A DNA stretch of 64,000 nt from Pseudomonas nitroreducens TX1 (GTDB taxonomy: Bacteria; Pseudomonadota; Gammaproteobacteria; Pseudomonadales; Pseudomonadaceae), in contig NZ_AMZB01000118.1 in NCBI RefSeq assembly GCF_000313755.1, positions 62,001 to 126,000 on the forward strand, read 5' to 3'. The position numbers and the translations under genes were made by a program. The first letter of the stretch is position 1; the number at the start of each line of letters is the position of its first letter. The notes under the pieces are model-generated. The model saw nothing but the letters and a program-made list of their open reading frames with translations, made no database searches and was not told the origin of the DNA. Below, one piece after another: positions 1 to 6,644 of this stretch.

Positions 1-238
1 TGTGGTACTGGCGGCCGAGCGTGATGAGAATGTCTTCGATCACATCGTTGAGCGCCAGCGACTTCATGGTCTTGAGTTTGGCGCGGACCACCTCGGTATT
101 GCCCGCAGCAGCCAGTTCGAGGTCCACGCCGCCGCCGGCCTGCCCGAGCAGCATGCCGCTCTTGGCATCCACCACGGCCGACGCCAGGGCACCATCCAGG
201 TTCAGCAGTTCGTCCAGCGATTGTTGCAGTGCTGCCAT
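1..238 (-). CDS. Roadblock/LC7 domain protein (3' part missing)
   Basis: The first 79 codons of a minus-strand gene are visible; its 3' end lies outside the window. The protein starts MAALQQSLDELLNLDG and continues with ALASAVVDAKSGMLLGQ and NDVIEDILITLG. This is the helix plus beta-hairpin pattern of Roadblock/LC7 proteins, which bind or regulate small GTPases such as MglA and the conservon GTPases. It is the fourth visible gene of the operon that begins at 1872, 71 bp after the second Roadblock gene. The family assignment rests on fold pattern and on the GTPase neighbour, not on catalytic residues, because the family has none. The precise partner is unknown. It is presumably expressed from the same riboswitch-controlled leader. 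Confidence 0.75.
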   Translation of the reverse strand, partial: MAALQQSLDELLNLDGALASAVVDAKSGMLLGQAGGGVDLELAAAGNTEVVRAKLKTMKSLALNDVIEDILITLGRQYH

Positions 239-309: not shown

Positions 310-720
310 TCAGCCGGCCAGCGACAGATCCGCCAGCCGTGTTGCGGTTCGTTTTGCCTGGTAGAGCACCTGACCGAGCATCTCCTCGCGGTCGGCGACC
401 AGGTTTAGGATCATCGGGTGGCTCGGGTGCGGGATGTCGACGATGACGATGTAGCCCTCGCTCGCTTCGACTATCACATTCTGGTGCGGCCCCACTTCGC
501 TCTCCTGGCCGACCATGGCGCCGAGGGCGGAGATCGAGCAGGCCATTGCAGCCAGCTTGGAAACCTCCAGCCCCTTGCCGGCGCGGGAGGCCACTTCGAA
601 ACCGTCCGTGGTGGCGATCACCGCCGCGCTCAGCCGGCCCAGGCTGGAGCCGAGTTCGTCCAGCGCCTGTTCAGCGTCCCTGCGCAGTCGTTCCGGCAGG
701 CTCATCAAGGCGTTTTCCAT
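310..720 (-). CDS. Roadblock/LC7 domain protein
   Basis: This 136-aa protein contains the typical Roadblock pattern: SSLGRLSAAVIATTDGFEVA, then a helix (LAAMACSISALGAMVGQES), then strands NVIVEASEGYIVIVDI and a final helix ending in a basic segment. Roadblock proteins of this size act as partners or GAP-like regulators of MglA/CvnD-type GTPases. The start at 720 (MENALMSLPERL) was chosen because the longer reading frame upstream runs into the GTPase gene in another frame. The gene lies 25 bp downstream of the GTPase gene and is co-directional with it, so it is almost certainly co-transcribed. A second Roadblock gene follows, so two different subunits could form a heterodimer. The cellular process served is not evident from sequence. 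Confidence 0.85.
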   Translation of the reverse strand: MENALMSLPERLRRDAEQALDELGSSLGRLSAAVIATTDGFEVASRAGKGLEVSKLAAMACSISALGAMVGQESEVGPHQNVIVEASEGYIVIVDIPHPSHPMILNLVADREEMLGQVLYQAKRTATRLADLSLAG

Positions 721-745: not shown

Positions 746-1276
746 TCAGGCCGCCGTGCACTCCAGTTGCAGCAGGAGCAGGTCAAGCAACAGGCGCACC
801 TGCTCCGCTTCACGCACGTCCACCTCAACCACGGGGAAGCTGTATCCGGCTTGCGCCAGGGTGGCGGCGTAGTCGTCCAAGCCGGGATGCGGATGACCGG
901 GCAGGCGACCGACGCCCACCACGCAGGACGTGCGGCCGATGCAGTCGGCGAAGCCATCGAGGTAAATCCGCAGATCGGCCAGCGGGTCGGGCCGCGAGTT
1001 GTCGATCAGAATCACCAGCCCCAGTGCGCCGCGGGAAAGAATTCCCCACATGAAGGCGAAGCGCGCCTGGCCGGGGGTGCCATAGAGGCGCAGACGCTCG
1101 TCCGGGCCAAGCACCACCTCCCCGTAATCGAGGCCGACCGTGGTGCGCGCCTTGTCCAGGCTGGGGTCGTTGTTCTGCACATCGGTGGTGACCGGCTCGA
1201 TATCGCTGACCGCGGCGATGGCGGTGGTCTTGCCGGCGCCCATGGTGCCAGTGAAGAGAATCTTGTATTCCCTCAT
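746..1276 (-). CDS. Small GTPase, MglA/SRbeta-like (COG2229-type)
   Basis: This 176-aa protein has a clear P-loop near the N-terminus (FTGTMGAGKTT, residues about 8-18). The G3 region reads LYGTPGQARFAFMW instead of the canonical DxxG, and the G4 region reads ILIDNSRPDPLADL rather than N/TKxD. These changes are typical of the predicted GTPase group that includes conservon CvnD proteins and MglA relatives. The gene overlaps the upstream gene by 4 bp (ATGA), implying translational coupling, and is followed by two Roadblock genes. The set GTPase plus Roadblock plus a winged-helix-like protein matches actinobacterial conservons (CvnB/C/D), although no conservon-type histidine kinase is visible here. 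A role as a molecular switch, possibly at the membrane, is inferred. Confidence 0.85.
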   Translation of the reverse strand: MREYKILFTGTMGAGKTTAIAAVSDIEPVTTDVQNNDPSLDKARTTVGLDYGEVVLGPDERLRLYGTPGQARFAFMWGILSRGALGLVILIDNSRPDPLADLRIYLDGFADCIGRTSCVVGVGRLPGHPHPGLDDYAATLAQAGYSFPVVEVDVREAEQVRLLLDLLLLQLECTAA

Positions 1277-1872
1277 CGGCTGGCCTCCGCCACACCGCCC
1301 AGGCCCAAGTGACGGCGGATACGTGCCAGCAGGCCAAGGGGAGCGGCAGTCTGCTGCGCAGGTGCAACCGGAATGGCCTCACTGTGTTGAAGCATCCCCT
1401 GCGCCTCCATCAGGCGGGCGAAGTTTTCCGCTACCGGGCGCGGCACGCCGGAGCGCTCGCATAGTTCTTCCAGGCTCATGGCCCGGGCACAGAGCAGCGT
1501 GGCCAGGCGTACGTAGCGATGATCGCCCTGGAGCAGAGAAGCCGCTGGCCAGTGCTTCAGGCGTAGCGCAGCGCCAGGTATCTCCACGGGCTGGTGGCCG
1601 ATGGCGCGGGCGGCGCGCTCCAGGCAGTCGAAGACTTCACCGGCACGCAGCGGCCAGTGCACCCAGAGCGACTCACCCTCGGCTGTGCGCAACTGCACCC
1701 TGGGCCCACCTTCCTCACCCTCGACCAGCAAATCGGCCGGGCCGTCGACGTAGGCCCAACTCGCCAATGTGCGGCCGCTTAGCAGGCCGACAATGGACTT
1801 GAAGACCACCTGATCTCGTAACGCCATGCGGGCGAACCCGTAGGTGCAATGAAGCTTGTACGGCTGATTCAT
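1273..1872 (-). CDS. Conserved partner protein of the Roadblock/GTPase operon
   Basis: This is a 199-aa protein with no recognisable enzyme motif. The N-terminal part (residues about 15-70: VVFKSIVGLLSGRTLASWAY...) recalls DUF4388-like sensor or adaptor domains. The C-terminal part (about 135-165: MSLEELCERSGVPRPVAENF) reads like a winged-helix segment, comparable to conservon CvnC/DUF742 proteins. Start at 1872 (MNQPYKLHC) was preferred to 1896 because a GGGAG sequence lies 7-12 bases upstream. It is the first gene of the operon and sits directly behind a structured leader with a c-di-GMP-I riboswitch. Its 3' end overlaps the GTPase start by 4 bp. Both domain comparisons are by eye and uncertain. 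Confidence 0.65.
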   Translation of the reverse strand: MNQPYKLHCTYGFARMALRDQVVFKSIVGLLSGRTLASWAYVDGPADLLVEGEEGGPRVQLRTAEGESLWVHWPLRAGEVFDCLERAARAIGHQPVEIPGAALRLKHWPAASLLQGDHRYVRLATLLCARAMSLEELCERSGVPRPVAENFARLMEAQGMLQHSEAIPVAPAQQTAAPLGLLARIRRHLGLGGVAEASR

Positions 1873-1901
1873 CGGCGCGCTCCCTTGGGCCAACAAACAC
1901 C

Positions 1902-1921
1902 ATCAACCTGCACGGGTTGAT
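1902..1921 (-). promoter_or_regulatory. Hairpin in the riboswitch expression platform
   Basis: On the minus strand the sequence ATCAACC-CGTGCA-GGTTGAT forms a 7-bp stem 30 bases before the start codon of the first gene, followed by GGTGTTTGTTGG. The CAACCC strand could alternatively pair with GGGTTG in the 3' strand of the aptamer (positions 1999-2004). The hairpin could therefore be one of two mutually exclusive structures. There is no clean U-tract, so a translational or weak termination mechanism is possible. The pairing is seen; the mechanism is inferred. Confidence 0.45.
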
Positions 1922-1990
1922 CAGGAGGCTCACCGGGACGTTGAAGGAAGCCGAGCGCACGCTCGCAGAAGGCTCGGACGAACGTCCGGC

Positions 1991-2080
1991 CTGCTTGGCA
2001 ACCCCGCGGTCATGGCCCTTTCGGGCTGTAGATCGGTGGCTTTGCGTCCCTGGCTTTCGCACAGGTTTGCCCTGGTCAAT
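1991..2080 (-). promoter_or_regulatory. Cyclic di-GMP-I riboswitch (GEMM-I) aptamer
   Basis: Read on the minus strand, the leader of the Roadblock/GTPase operon contains GGGCAAACC, then a stem CCTG-T-GC-GAAA-GC-CAGG with a GNRA tetraloop, then GGGACGCAAAGCC, a second stem, and finally GACCGCGGGGTTGCC. These blocks, in this order and spacing, are the conserved core of class I c-di-GMP riboswitches: the GCAAACC and GACGCAAAGCC joining segments, the GAAA docking loop, and the GCGGGGTT segment that carries the ligand-contacting C. The aptamer lies about 120 nt upstream of the first gene. GEMM-I elements are common in Geobacter, Vibrio and clostridia but, to my knowledge, unusual in Pseudomonas. 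Whether ligand switches the operon on or off cannot be decided by eye. Confidence 0.85.
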
Positions 2081-2091
2081 TGAGTCTCAGC

Positions 2092-2121
2092 GTAGTACGC
2101 CGATTTCGTTCGCCAAGGCAA
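2092..2121 (-). promoter_or_regulatory. Possible sigma-70 promoter of the riboswitch leader
   Basis: On the minus strand TTGCCT (2121-2116) and TACTAC (2097-2092) are 18 bp apart. They end about 18 bp before the aptamer begins, which is the right place for a promoter of the leader RNA. An alternative is TTGGCG with TACGCT at 16 bp in the same stretch. The match is moderate only. Confidence 0.35.
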
Positions 2122-2308
2122 AAAAATGCGAAATGCATCACACAAATATCGGAAATATCACCGGAACGACTTCGCAATATCTGTCGCTACATTTCGATCC
2201 AAAAGCGGCGAAAACTGCCTCGTCGGCTAGGATTTCCTACAGCGGCGCCCTACCGGCAGGGGCTCGCCGAATTCCCCTACAAGCCGGAGCTCACTGCCCA
2301 GAGACACC

Positions 2309-3634
2309 ATGCTAGAGCGCCAGCGCTTCCTGAATATTCTCAACCTGGGTCTGCCGATCATCGGCGGGATGCTCAGCCAGAGCCTGCTTAACCTGGTGGA
2401 TGCGGCCATGGTCGGCCACCTCGGGGAAAAGTCCCTCGCCGGAGTCGGCATCGGCAGCTACGCCAATTTCGTCGCCATCTCCCTGGTGATGGGCCTGGGC
2501 GCCGGCGTACAGGCACTGGTGGCGCGCCGACGGGGCGAAGGACGCAGCGACGAACTCGCCGCGCCGCTGAACTGCGGGCTGCTGGTGGCGCTGGGCCTGT
2601 CGCTGCCGATCACGCTGTTCTGCCTGCTATTTGCCGAGCCCATTGTCCGCGCCCTATCCCATGACCCCGAGGTGCTCGCGGTCGGCATTCCCTACTTCGA
2701 ATGGCGTGCCTTGTCGGTACTCGCCGTCGGCCTCAACTTTTCCTTCCGCGGCTATTGGAACGGCACCCGGCGCTCGGGCACGTACATGCGTACCCTGGTG
2801 GTGATGCACCTGGCCAACGCGGCGATCAGCTACAGCCTGATCCACGGCCTGTTCGGCCTGCCGCGAATGGGCGCCGTGGGCAGCGGCCTCGGCACAACCC
2901 TGGCGCTGTATATCGGCTCGCTGATCTATGCCTGGATCACCTGGCGCGACACCCGCGCCCAAGGCGGCCGCCTGCGCCTGCCGAGTGAACGCGATATCCG
3001 CACGTTGCTGCGCCTGTCGCTGCCCAACTCACTGCAGCAATTCTTCTTCGCCGCCGGCATCACCCTGCTGTTCTGGATCATCGCCCAGGTCGGCACCCGC
3101 GAGCTGGCGGTGGCCCACGTGCTGATCAACCTGGCGCTGTTCCTGATCCTGCCCGGCGTCGGCCTGGGCATGGCGGCGACCACCCTGGTCAGCCAGAGCA
3201 TGGGCGAGCGCGACTTCGACAGTGCGCACCGCTGGGGCTGGGACGTGGTGAAAGTGGCGGCCTGCGGACTGGCGATGCTGGGCGCTCCGTTCTGGATTTT
3301 TCCCGAAACCATCCTGCGGCTGTTCGTCAGCGACCCCGCGCTGATCGAACTGGGCCGCGTACCGCTGATGCTGACCGGCATGGGCATGGTGATCGACGCC
3401 ACTGCGCTGGTATTGACCCAGGCGCTGCTTGGCGCAGGCGCCGTCCGCACTGTGATGGCGGTCAGCCTGGGCAACCAGTGGCTGTTCTTCCTGCCGCTGG
3501 CCTACCTGGTGGGCCCGGTGCTGGGCGGCGGGCTGCTGGCGATATGGAGCATGCAGATTCTGCAGCGCGGGCTGGCTTCGGCGATCTTCGCGGTGATGTG
3601 GCAGAAGCGCCAGTGGACGCAGATCGAACTCTAG
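2309..3634 (+). CDS. MATE family multidrug/Na+ (or H+) antiporter
   Basis: This 441-aa protein has about twelve hydrophobic segments and the MATE family's internal duplication. The first half has LGLPIIGGMLSQSLLNLVDAAMVGHLG and the second half LRLSLPNSLQQFFFAAGITLLFWII, with VSQSMGERD resembling the conserved loop after TM8. MATE proteins in the inner membrane export cationic drugs and metabolites in exchange for Na+ or H+. The length matches the family (about 440-460). The start ATG at 2309 follows CAGAGACACC, which is a weak ribosome binding site. The gene is divergent from the riboswitch operon across a 436-bp gap. Substrate cannot be predicted. It is NorM/PmpM-like in general features but not assigned to either. 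Confidence 0.88.
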   Translation: MLERQRFLNILNLGLPIIGGMLSQSLLNLVDAAMVGHLGEKSLAGVGIGSYANFVAISLVMGLGAGVQALVARRRGEGRSDELAAPLNCGLLVALGLSLPITLFCLLFAEPIVRALSHDPEVLAVGIPYFEWRALSVLAVGLNFSFRGYWNGTRRSGTYMRTLVVMHLANAAISYSLIHGLFGLPRMGAVGSGLGTTLALYIGSLIYAWITWRDTRAQGGRLRLPSERDIRTLLRLSLPNSLQQFFFAAGITLLFWIIAQVGTRELAVAHVLINLALFLILPGVGLGMAATTLVSQSMGERDFDSAHRWGWDVVKVAACGLAMLGAPFWIFPETILRLFVSDPALIELGRVPLMLTGMGMVIDATALVLTQALLGAGAVRTVMAVSLGNQWLFFLPLAYLVGPVLGGGLLAIWSMQILQRGLASAIFAVMWQKRQWTQIEL

Positions 3635-3683
3635 CGTTCGCGCCCTCAGGAGCTAGGCTTGCAGGCAACAAGGAGGACTAACG

Positions 3684-3899
3684 ATGGACGAGCAACAGAA
3701 CAAGCCACCGAGCTTCTGGCAGATGCTCCACAGCGTGCTGGCCGCGGCCTTCGGCGTACAGAGCGGACGCAACCGCGCGCGCGACTTCACCCACGGCAAA
3801 CCCAGTCACTTCATCGCCATGGGCATTCTCTTCACGCTGGCCTTCGTGTTGCTGCTCTATGGGCTGGTGCAATTGGTACTGCATTTCGCCGGGCTGTAG
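3684..3899 (+). CDS. DUF2970 small membrane protein
   Basis: This 71-aa protein begins with a cytoplasmic stretch including FWQMLHSVLAAAFGVQSG, a signature of the DUF2970 family, and ends with one transmembrane helix (FIAMGILFTLAFVLLLYGLVQ, written here in part). Family members are found in many proteobacteria and have no known function. An AAGGAGG ribosome binding site at 3670-3676 supports the start at 3684. It lies 49 bp after the MATE gene on the same strand and may be co-transcribed with it. Confidence 0.8.
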   Translation: MDEQQNKPPSFWQMLHSVLAAAFGVQSGRNRARDFTHGKPSHFIAMGILFTLAFVLLLYGLVQLVLHFAGL

Positions 3900-3960
3900 G
3901 AAAGCCGACTGGGGGCATGAGGTACCGGCCGGGCCGCAGGACGACCCGCCGGCACTGCCG

Positions 3961-4074
3961 TCACTGGTGGCTGACCCAGAACACGGCCGTCGCGACCACC
4001 AGCAGGATCAGGATGAATGCGGCGCGGGCATCGACGACGCTGTCGCTGGTCTTGTGGGACGTTTCTTCGCTCAT
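3961..4074 (-). CDS. 37-residue single-span membrane protein
   Basis: A short minus-strand frame encodes MSEETSHKTSDSVVDARAAF followed by ILILLVVATAVFWVSHQ and a TGA stop at 3963-3961. It has a polar N-terminus and one clear transmembrane helix ending near the C-terminus. A GGGGGA sequence lies a few bases upstream of the ATG at 4074. The organised polar/hydrophobic split and good ribosome binding site favour a real gene. It sits between convergent and divergent neighbours in a stretch that otherwise has no gene. Function unknown. Similar tiny membrane proteins often modulate transporters or respiratory complexes, but nothing here shows that. Confidence 0.6.
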   Translation of the reverse strand: MSEETSHKTSDSVVDARAAFILILLVVATAVFWVSHQ

Positions 4075-4229
4075 GCTTCCCCCATTTTCTCGTTATTGGC
4101 TGAAGGACCACAGGCAAGAGTTAAGACCAGGCCAGCCCACCGCTCAAGGAACCGCCCCCTTTTCGCCGCCGCACAAATGTCGGTAGGCTGCCGCTTCGAC
4201 AAGACAAGCGATATGAAAAAGGTAGGACC

Positions 4230-4724
4230 ATGCACGTGGATTCACTGCAAGACACTGTCGCCCCGGAAGGCGTCTGCTACGGCTGCGGCGGCAGCAACCC
4301 GCACGGACTGCACATCAAGAGCCGCTGGCACGAAGACGGCATCCACGTGGTCGCCGAGCACCTGCCCGAAGCCAAGTACTGCGGCTGGCCGGAGCTGGTC
4401 TACGGCGGCCTGATCGCCATGCTGGTGGACTGCCATTCGAACTGGACCGCCATGGCCTACCACTATCGAGCCGAAGGCCGCGAGCCGGGCAGCCTGCCGC
4501 GCATTGACTGCGTCACCGGCAACCTGGGCATCAAGTACATCAAACCGACGCCCATGGGCGTGCCGCTGACCCTCAGGGCCCATGTCGAGGGTGAGGTCGG
4601 GCGCAAGAGCCGGATCATCTGCGAGGTCTACGCCGGCGACGTGCTGACCTGCGTCGGCGACTCGATCTTCGTCCGTGTCGACACCTCGCAACTGCGCGAT
4701 GCCGCCCACGGTCGCGATGCCTGA
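4230..4724 (+). CDS. PaaI-type hotdog-fold thioesterase
   Basis: This 164-aa protein contains GVCYGCGGSNPHGLHIKS near the N-terminus (residues about 14-30) and a hotdog core with LVYGGLIAMLVDCHSNWTAMAY, the pattern of the PaaI/YdiI-like thioesterase superfamily in which the long helix follows a conserved G-G. The late motif ITVRAHV-like strand (PLTLRAHVEGEVGRKSRII) fits. Family members hydrolyse acyl-CoA thioesters. The CxGC cluster at the N-terminus is common in a proteobacterial subgroup annotated only as PaaI family. It lies about 260 bp upstream of cysI on the same strand; in P. aeruginosa a thioesterase gene occupies a similar place near cysI. Substrate unknown. Confidence 0.8.
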   Translation: MHVDSLQDTVAPEGVCYGCGGSNPHGLHIKSRWHEDGIHVVAEHLPEAKYCGWPELVYGGLIAMLVDCHSNWTAMAYHYRAEGREPGSLPRIDCVTGNLGIKYIKPTPMGVPLTLRAHVEGEVGRKSRIICEVYAGDVLTCVGDSIFVRVDTSQLRDAAHGRDA

Positions 4725-4801
4725 CTCACTCCCATTGCGGCACCGCCATTAACCCGGCGAAGCGGCGCCACGCAGGAACGGACGTCCGGCTTCGGGTACC
4801 C

Positions 4802-4831
4802 GCCCCGCTTGAGCTTCAGGCCCGGCGGGGC
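4802..4831 (+). terminator. Possible hairpin terminator after the thioesterase gene
   Basis: GCCCCGC at 4802-4808 and GCGGGGC at 4825-4831 form a 7-bp GC stem followed by TTAG, with no real T-tract. The rest of the 261-bp gap before cysI contains AT-richer sequence around 4850-4890, with TTTTGC and TATCGT 17 bp apart as a possible cysI promoter. I could not identify a CysB site by eye. Confidence 0.3.
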
Positions 4832-4985
4832 TTAGATCCGAAAGTTCTCGCCATATACTCAAACATCACTTTTGCGCATATTCCCGAACTGGTATCGTGC
4901 GCCCCACTCCGCGTGGAGCGCGTTGCCGTGCGCGCTGGGATACGCAATACGCCCTGAGCGCTATAGCCTGACAGCAGGATGATTC

Positions 4986-6644
4986 ATGTACGTATATGAC
5001 GAATACGATCAGAGGATCGTAGAGGATCGCGTCAAGCAGTTCCGCGATCAGACCCGCCGCTACCTGGCGGGCGAACTGACCGGCGAGGAATTCCGCCCGC
5101 TGCGTCTGCAGAATGGCCTGTACATCCAGCGCTACGCACCCATGCTGCGAGTGGCCGTGCCTTACGGCCTGCTGTCTTCGAAGCAGGTTCGCAAGCTGGC
5201 GCAGATCGCCCGCGACTACGACAAGGGCTACGCGCACATCAGCACCCGCCAGAACGTCCAGTACAACTGGCCGGAACTGGAAGACGTGCCGGAAATCCTC
5301 GCCGAGCTGGCCACCGTGCAGATGCACGCGATCCAGACCAGCGGCAACTGCATCCGCAACACCACCACCGACCAGTTCGCCGGCGTCGCCCGCGACGAAC
5401 TCGTGGACCCGCGCCCCTGGTGCGAGATCATCCGCCAGTGGTCGACCTTCCACCCCGAATTCGCCCACCTGCCGCGCAAGTTCAAGATCGCCGTCAACGG
5501 CGCCGTGAGCGACCGCGCCGCCATTGAGGTGCACGACATCGGCCTGGAAGCGGTGAAGAACGAAGCCGGCGAACTGGGCTTCCGTGTTTCCGTCGGCGGC
5601 GGCCTGGGCCGTACCCCGATCGTCGGCAGCTTCATCAATGAATTCCTGCCCTGGCAGCACCTGCTGTCGTACCTGGACGCCATCCTGCGCGTGTACAACC
5701 GCTATGGCCGTCGGGACAACAAGTACAAGGCGCGCATCAAGATCCTGGTCAAGGCGCTGACCCCGGAAGTCTTCGCCCAGAAGGTCGACGCCGAATGGGC
5801 GCACCTCAAGGACGGTCCGAGCACCCTGACCGAGGCCGAACTGCAGCGCGTGGCCGCCCACTTCGTCGACCCGGCGTACCAAGCCTTGGAAGACCAGGAC
5901 GCCGCCCTCGCCCAGCTGGACGCCGAACACCCCGGCTTCGCCCGCTGGCGCAGCCGCAACACCTTCGCCCACAAGAAGCCCGGCTACGTCGCCGTGACCC
6001 TGTCGCTCAAGCCCACCGGCGTGGCGCCTGGCGACATCACCGACAAGCAACTGGACGTGGTCGCCGACCTGGCCGACCGCTACAGCTTCGGCGAAGTGCG
6101 CAACAGCCATAACCAGAACATCATCCTCGCCGACGTCGAGCAGGCGCAGCTGTTCACCCTCTGGGGCGAACTGCGCGAGAACGGTTTCGCTACCCCCAAC
6201 GTGGGCCTGCTGACCGACCTCATCTGCTGCCCGGGCGGCGACTTCTGCTCCCTGGCCAACGCCAAGTCGATCCCGGTGGCCGAAGCCATCCAGCGCCGCT
6301 TCGATGACCTGGATTACCTGTTCGACATCGGCGACATCGACCTGAACATCTCCGGCTGCATGAACGCCTGCGGCCACCACCACGTGGGCCACATCGGCAT
6401 CCTTGGCGTGGACAAGAAGGGCGAGGAGTTCTACCAGGTCTCCCTCGGCGGCAGCGCCAGCCGCGAGGCGAGCCTTGCGCAGATCCTCGGCCCGTCCTTC
6501 GCCCAGGAGCAGATGGCCGACGTGATCGAGAAAATCATCAACGTCTACGTGGAACAGCGCACCGAAGAGGAACGCTTCCTCGATACCTACCGTCGCATCG
6601 GCATCGACCCCTTCAAGGAGCGCGTATATGCAGCGAATCATTAA
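4986..6644 (+). CDS. cysI: Sulfite reductase (siroheme, [4Fe-4S]) CysI
   Basis: This 552-aa protein has the nitrite/sulfite reductase duplicated ferredoxin-like half domains followed by siroheme-binding halves. The four [4Fe-4S]/siroheme cysteines are present as C415-x5-C421 and C458-x3-C462 (in CCPGGDFC and GCMNACGHHH). The enzyme reduces sulfite to sulfide in the cytoplasm for cysteine synthesis. The N-terminal part includes STRQNVQYNW and TSGNCIRNTT, which are hallmark siroheme-phosphate contacts. The ATG at 4986 is preceded by AGGATGATTC. The downstream DUF934 gene overlaps by 17 nt, so the two are coupled. P. aeruginosa has the same pair. Electron donor genes are not nearby, consistent with use of ferredoxin or a separate flavoprotein. 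Confidence 0.95.
   Translation: MYVYDEYDQRIVEDRVKQFRDQTRRYLAGELTGEEFRPLRLQNGLYIQRYAPMLRVAVPYGLLSSKQVRKLAQIARDYDKGYAHISTRQNVQYNWPELEDVPEILAELATVQMHAIQTSGNCIRNTTTDQFAGVARDELVDPRPWCEIIRQWSTFHPEFAHLPRKFKIAVNGAVSDRAAIEVHDIGLEAVKNEAGELGFRVSVGGGLGRTPIVGSFINEFLPWQHLLSYLDAILRVYNRYGRRDNKYKARIKILVKALTPEVFAQKVDAEWAHLKDGPSTLTEAELQRVAAHFVDPAYQALEDQDAALAQLDAEHPGFARWRSRNTFAHKKPGYVAVTLSLKPTGVAPGDITDKQLDVVADLADRYSFGEVRNSHNQNIILADVEQAQLFTLWGELRENGFATPNVGLLTDLICCPGGDFCSLANAKSIPVAEAIQRRFDDLDYLFDIGDIDLNISGCMNACGHHHVGHIGILGVDKKGEEFYQVSLGGSASREASLAQILGPSFAQEQMADVIEKIINVYVEQRTEEERFLDTYRRIGIDPFKERVYAANH

Follow-up and report, generated by a model that had tools for sequence, protein, structure and literature searches.

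The riboswitches of the c-di-GMP-I class (GEMM-I) are usually named for surface, motility or regulator genes as their targets, and the c-di-GMP effectors known in Pseudomonas are mostly proteins. According to the available text of one review, the Vc2 element of Vibrio cholerae is a translational OFF switch (PMC9262584), and in that of another Vc2 is called a gene-on switch (PMC12564702); GEMM-Ib is named as a riboswitch type in the accessible part of PMC8835794. On the protein side, the closest described systems are the Group 3 MglA systems surveyed by Wuichet and Sogaard-Andersen in 2014 (PMC4316618). As given in the available text of that survey, they pair a homologue of MglA with one or two of MglB and include a further protein, of unknown function, that begins with a receiver-like region and ends in a winged helix; they occur almost only in beta- and gamma-proteobacteria, their GTPases often lack the usual lysine in G4 and carry an arginine in G5, and no tested function was assigned to them.

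The locus described here lies in a stretch of 64,000 nucleotides from Pseudomonas nitroreducens TX1, the whole of which was analysed and is referred to as the window. It very probably represents a four-gene operon of the Group 3 MglA type whose 5' leader carries a c-di-GMP-I riboswitch (Table 1). Rfam cmscan of the whole window, in which 4227 families were run against both strands, returned the RF01051 element at 2081-1994 of the minus strand (E 1.4e-13; gathering threshold 35 bits) as the sole match above threshold. The match is not cut off and spans the full model (positions 1-87 of 87), departing from it by a single inserted base in P2 and a single non-standard pair. Within its clan the best match is RF01051, not RF03167 (c-di-GMP-I-GGC) or other variants, and a whole-genome search of TX1 gave no second RF01051 match. 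An earlier note on this DNA had read a complete GEMM-I core in the leader and proposed a search of the minus strand with RF01051; the motifs it quoted are present, within a full-length match scoring far above the threshold. Its range of 1902-2121 does contain the aptamer but is too wide, as it takes in flanking leader and promoter region and parts of the expression platform. The aptamer is on the same strand as orf1, 121 nt before the orf1 ATG; its form is canonical, and it is both conserved and linked with the operon. With Vc2, likewise of RF01051, it shares the core motifs, a GAAA tetraloop and a G at the specificity base, whereas its target, a small-GTPase/Roadblock operon, differs from the genes usually named for the class.

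Table 1. Features of the riboswitch leader and operon, in order of transcription (positions are those of the window).
Feature	Position	Strand	Evidence
CRP/Vfr-like palindrome TGTGA-N6-TCRCR, here TGTGATGCATTTCGCA	2127..2142	minus	9/10 half-site positions
Putative -10 element TACGCT, start near 2082	2089..2094	minus	by-eye alignment
c-di-GMP-I (GEMM-I) riboswitch aptamer	1994..2081	minus	RF01051 77.7 bits; 82/88 columns invariant in 12 genomes
Aptamer segment GGGACG, possible anti-aptamer target	2045..2050	minus	sequence, predicted pairing
Expression platform, 121 nt	1873..1993	minus	76 of 121 columns invariant; pairwise identity 0.91 on average
Candidate anti-aptamer CGTCCC, complementary to GGGACG	1935..1940	minus	present in 11/12 genus leaders
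Terminator-like hairpin, weak T tract	1902..1921	minus	1 found in region, 0.6 expected
Shine-Dalgarno-like AAGGGAG of orf1	1880..1886	minus	sequence, alignment
orf1, 199 aa, C-terminal winged HTH	1273..1872	minus	HTH_IclR 22.4 bits, cut-off 22
orf2, 176 aa, MglA-type Ras-like small GTPase	746..1276	minus	PF03029 38.2 bits, cut-off 27
orf3, 136 aa, Roadblock/LC7 (MglB-like)	310..720	minus	orthologue profile: 7f8m E 1.2e-13, cvnB5 E 4.9e-10
orf4, 119 aa, Roadblock-like	1..238, runs past window edge	minus	7yh1 E 0.026

Four genes follow the leader on the minus strand, encoding a winged HTH protein (orf1), a Ras-like GTPase (orf2), a Roadblock protein (orf3) and a Roadblock-like protein (orf4); the neighbouring gene at 2309, which is divergent, encodes a MATE-family transporter. 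Where the earlier note had listed a small GTPase and two Roadblock proteins, with the GTPase first, the GTPase and one Roadblock protein (orf3) stand, the second (orf4) is weakly supported, and the first gene is in fact orf1 (1872-1273), which had been overlooked. HTH families were matched in few of 15 aligned orf1 relatives, the HTH_IclR match of the window protein lying just past its cut-off. Profile-profile comparison (probability 99.1) showed orf1 to be homologous to a longer Marinobacter/Acinetobacter protein of the same operon type; this homologue, encoded beside the same GTPase in both of those genera, has 318-355 aa, as against 199 in the window. Sequence and profile searches with the orf1 N-terminus gave no clear Pfam or PDB match, including none to a receiver-like domain. 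The family profile of orf2 matches Sec4/Rab structures (best E 3.5e-6), and its motifs read GTMGAGKT, LYGTPGQ, GVGR and DVR. For orf3 the Pfam score of the protein itself (15.9) is below the cut-off of 23, and the assignment comes from the orthologue profile. The end of orf4 is outside the window and was read in L013; the protein has 84-45% identity to 13 chosen orthologues, and Robl_LC7 appears below threshold in one Acinetobacter orthologue and is absent from the window protein.

By its sequence the operon fits the Group 3 MglA type. The GTPase has GVGR at G4, with no NKxD lysine, and DVR at G5; one or two MglB/Roadblock genes are adjacent (orf3 by profile, orf4 weakly), and orf1 supplies a partner with a C-terminal winged HTH. 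Among 75 relatives, in which G5 was read by a pattern that missed 17 and G4 as a fixed window rather than an aligned motif, G5 is DVR in 53, DAR in 4 and another sequence in 1. The gene set, the G4 and G5 motifs and the beta/gamma-proteobacterial spread of the relatives are thus points of likeness; points of difference are the short orf1 of the window and the riboswitch, of which the available text of PMC4316618 makes no mention. The actinobacterial conservons (Cvn, Group 2 MglA), as described in the same text, also combine a GTPase with a Roadblock partner and have unusual G4/G5 motifs, but their histidine kinase (CvnA) is absent from the four genes of the window, where a winged HTH protein has the first place. 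Since that first gene encodes a probable DNA-binding protein, the output of the operon is plausibly transcriptional.

The association of riboswitch and operon was followed across genomes at several levels, with the reservation that all searches of more than 40 genomes (the sets of 298, 49 and 390, and the genus of M. lipolyticus) used stricter filters, by which weak matches are lost. In the genus of the window the riboswitch is present in 12 of 25 genomes (window included), orf1-orf2-orf3 come directly after it in all 12, and exactly the same 12 have close GTPase orthologues (87-100% identity); one further member (G001) has a partial GTPase homologue at 42% without the riboswitch. Class I c-di-GMP riboswitches had been thought unusual in Pseudomonas, and an RF01051 match was indeed found in only 22 of 298 Pseudomonadaceae genomes, and five of the loci from that search score higher with RF03167, which is the best model for 5 of the 20 loci scanned besides the window. 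A GTPase homologue occurs in 27 of the 298, and in 13 of these (the 12 of the genus and G257) the riboswitch adjoins the operon; five other genomes contain both, with the two either on separate contigs or over 300 kb from each other. When GTDB genomes were scanned with the GTPase alignment, 75 named loci were obtained, mainly from Comamonadaceae judging by the genus names; in these, nearby matches were obtained to orf2 and orf3 in all 75, to orf1 in 71 (one weak) and to orf4 in 69 (three weak), all four genes being matched in 65. RF01051 was found anywhere in 8 of 49 relatives' genomes (50 loci) and next to the operon in four, these being Pseudomonas sp. MRCP1333 (L050), sp. 5P_3.1_Bac2 (L061, the strain of G257) and sp. 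TTU2014-080ASC (L063), together with Marinobacter lipolyticus SM19 (L115), where at 3166-5959 the riboswitch is followed by orf4, a long orf1 homologue, the GTPase and a Roadblock gene. For 19 more loci 18 genomes were searched (2 also among the 49) and RF01051 was matched in none, the controls of that search going unmatched too. The same element was thereby recovered before orthologous operons, where the earlier note had suggested looking for it, in 12 of 12 cases in the genus, in three further Pseudomonas and in one Marinobacter.

Seen from the side of the riboswitch, an order-level sample gave RF01051 in 51 of 390 genomes, the orf4 profile in 45 and both in nine, and among these nine the two are adjacent only in the 4 members of the genus. 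Operon genes were found within 1500 bases on either side at none of 26 further riboswitch loci of the order search, and at 1 of 20 riboswitch loci (of 46 matches) in the genus of M. lipolyticus. The link is thus maintained in one clade of Pseudomonas and strains related to it, and in Marinobacter it seems to stem from an independent recruitment or from a transfer. The riboswitch as a general trait of the operon type was rejected, given its adjacent position in 13 of 27 Pseudomonadaceae genomes with a GTPase homologue, and, among the named relatives, in 4 of 49 genomes and in 0 of the 18.

Other riboswitches of the class were met in the course of these searches, and the genes after them were named by eye, with no family search. 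Elements of a GCC...CGGAAAG type occur in other Pseudomonadaceae (L022-L030) and make up most of L209-L221 in the genus of M. lipolyticus; RF03167 is the best match for L022, L024 and L025, and RF01051, at 48-55 bits, for L023, L026-L030 and L214. As judged by eye, several of those in Pseudomonadaceae precede repeat-rich surface or secreted proteins. Five c-di-GMP-I riboswitches in the genus of M. lipolyticus (L203-L206 and L208; 69-82 bits) stand before exported-looking proteins with N-termini that appear similar by eye, and in one genome (G743) a pair of aptamers is separated by roughly 740 bases.

Conservation of the leader in the 12 genomes of the genus is graded, with mean pairwise identities of 98% in the aptamer, 91% in the platform and 75% in the region further upstream. 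The base equivalent to G20 of Vc2, which we take by the Vc2 numbering to be position 11 of the aptamer model, is G in all 12 aptamers of the genus (window included), and also in those of MRCP1333 (L120) and the Marinobacter (L119); it is A in L061/L125 and L063/L123, which are orthologous riboswitches before the same operon in two sister Pseudomonas lineages. The pattern covers aptamers with a located core (none was located in L147, L153, L154, L162, L163, L165, L169, L208 and L213), and in aptamers of the GCC...CGGAAAG type the base read is not safely position 11. An A at this base goes with cGAMP binding in the GEMM-Ib riboswitches of Geobacter, which belong to the same aptamer family and whose A is shared by L061 and L063, whereas the window aptamer has G. 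The G at this specificity base makes c-di-GMP the likely ligand of the window aptamer and argues against a different one there.

An in vivo ligand of 3',3'-cGAMP, or a mixed response, as for GEMM-Ib in Geobacter, is accordingly improbable for the window. Some room for it is left by the A that the L061 and L063 orthologues of the aptamer carry, and by the available text of PMC9262584, in which G11 of Cd1 is equated with G20 of Vc2 and this base in Cd1 is described as contributing to selectivity among cyclic dinucleotides without acting as a hard filter; the G shared by all 12 aptamers of the genus, and the best clan match of the window to RF01051 rather than to the variant families, weigh against it. 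Even more remote is the idea that the aptamer is a degenerate relic which travels with the operon and has no regulatory function. The absence of the riboswitch from most relatives of the operon and the lack of a clear switching fold in the folding predictions would suit a relic, but an aptamer identity of 98%, higher than that of its flanks, and an intact aptamer both in lineages with 42% orf1 identity and in Marinobacter would not.

Upstream of the aptamer, a CRP/Vfr-like palindrome is predicted that matches at 9 of 10 positions in all 12 operon-bearing genomes of the genus (the window and the same place in L002-L012), with the TGTGA half-site invariant and the 6-base spacer 59% identical. 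Conservation is the main evidence for this predicted site: in the whole window 1 match was found against 1.11 expected by chance, and 7 of 2000 shuffles of the 142-base upstream piece reach 9/10. In the 11 operon-less genus genomes compared, matches within 400 bases upstream of the MATE gene reach at best 5 to 7 of 10 (a close orthologue of that gene is lacking in the other two), and the palindrome therefore goes with the operon (12 of 12 operon-bearing genomes as against 0 of 11 operon-less neighbours). Beyond the genus the match is 8/10 in L050, L061 and L063 and only 6/10 in L115; as 64 to 97 of 2000 shuffles equal the 8/10 matches, these are suggestive only. In three genomes without the operon (G002, G003 and G013) a 7/10 match stands at nearly the same place and is perhaps a remnant; such 7/10 matches in operon-less genomes, as at the loci L238, L239 and L243, lie 185-203 bases from the MATE start and may be left over from the promoter of a lost operon. 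A sigma-70 promoter scan of the leader region found none; the by-eye alignment offers TAGACT in L050 and TAGGCT in L061 and L063 as counterparts of the putative -10 element. With a transcript start near 2082 the centre of the palindrome would be near -52.5, which is no classical activating position for CRP-type sites.

From these elements a working model can be drawn. Transcription would begin roughly one base before the aptamer; bound c-di-GMP would stabilise the aptamer and so exclude an alternative pairing of GGGACG (2050-2045) with CGTCCC (1940-1935), and by this exchange between aptamer and anti-aptamer the ribosome-binding site of orf1 would become more or less accessible. In this manner c-di-GMP could set the dose of the GTPase/GAP pair and that of the DNA-binding protein, which is perhaps the output of the pair. 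Predicted pairing probabilities of CGTCCC with GGGACG range from 0 to 0.98 over 12 leaders (L012, without CGTCCC, left out).

Translational control is considered more likely than a terminator, since the sole terminator-like hairpin of the region is not conserved. Attenuation of transcription, in which this hairpin (1921-1902), or else a Rho site within the long leader, would stop transcription before orf1 in dependence on c-di-GMP, is possible though doubtful. The hairpin folds better than shuffles (z -2.25) and keeps its arms in 11 of 12 genus leaders; however, it has only 3 G-C pairs, its T tract is interrupted by a G, and 0.6 such hairpins are expected by chance in the region. With the arms lost in G022 and the T tract in G020, it is probably no conserved terminator, and on these grounds it is not favoured as an intrinsic one.

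For the preferred translational mechanism, thermodynamic folding gave no clear answer as to the direction of switching, as the Shine-Dalgarno and AUG measures conflict and the local stem is at shuffle level. When the aptamer was forced to form, at an energy cost of 0.9-10 kcal/mol over 13 leaders, predicted access to the Shine-Dalgarno went down in 11 of the 13 (by 0.01 to 0.30), went from 0.91 to 0.92 in the window and was unchanged in L009, whereas access to the AUG went up in 8, down in 3 and was unchanged in 2; the two predictions thus disagree on direction and the changes are mostly small. In the five leaders concerned, the local stem over the Shine-Dalgarno is no more stable than shuffled sequences (z -0.74 for the window and for L003; between 0.17 and 1.24 for L002, L009 and L050). 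We lean slightly toward an OFF switch, by analogy with Vc2, because a freed CGTCCC would let the stem over the Shine-Dalgarno close fully, and because the forced aptamer lowers predicted Shine-Dalgarno access in most leaders.

A search of the open-licence literature (titles and the starts of abstracts) returned no report of a c-di-GMP riboswitch before a GTPase/Roadblock operon. The earlier claim that no such case had been described therefore holds for the pairing within that literature, but not for the operon type itself, which is described in the available text of PMC4316618. Rfam-based tables, for instance in subscription papers or supplements, may already list the riboswitch. As a riboswitch the element is a regular case of a known class; what is new is the operon it precedes.

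In summary, a conserved c-di-GMP sensor before the operon is, as far as we know, the first concrete indication of the conditions under which a Group 3 MglA system is used. Such a system would be called for at a particular level of c-di-GMP, and so probably when cells change between motility and life on a surface. For this Pseudomonas clade the finding points to an RNA effector of c-di-GMP, which may serve there as a natural reporter of the second messenger. A wider reading, tentative and rather unlikely as a whole, would join the observations into a two-messenger gate, with CRP/Vfr acting on transcription and c-di-GMP on translation, recruited repeatedly (in Pseudomonas and in Marinobacter) and shifted toward cGAMP by a G-to-A change in some lineages; if true, a bacterial Ras-like switch would be gated by two second messengers. 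At the level of the locus itself, the lifestyle signal c-di-GMP would be connected to a Ras-like switch system.
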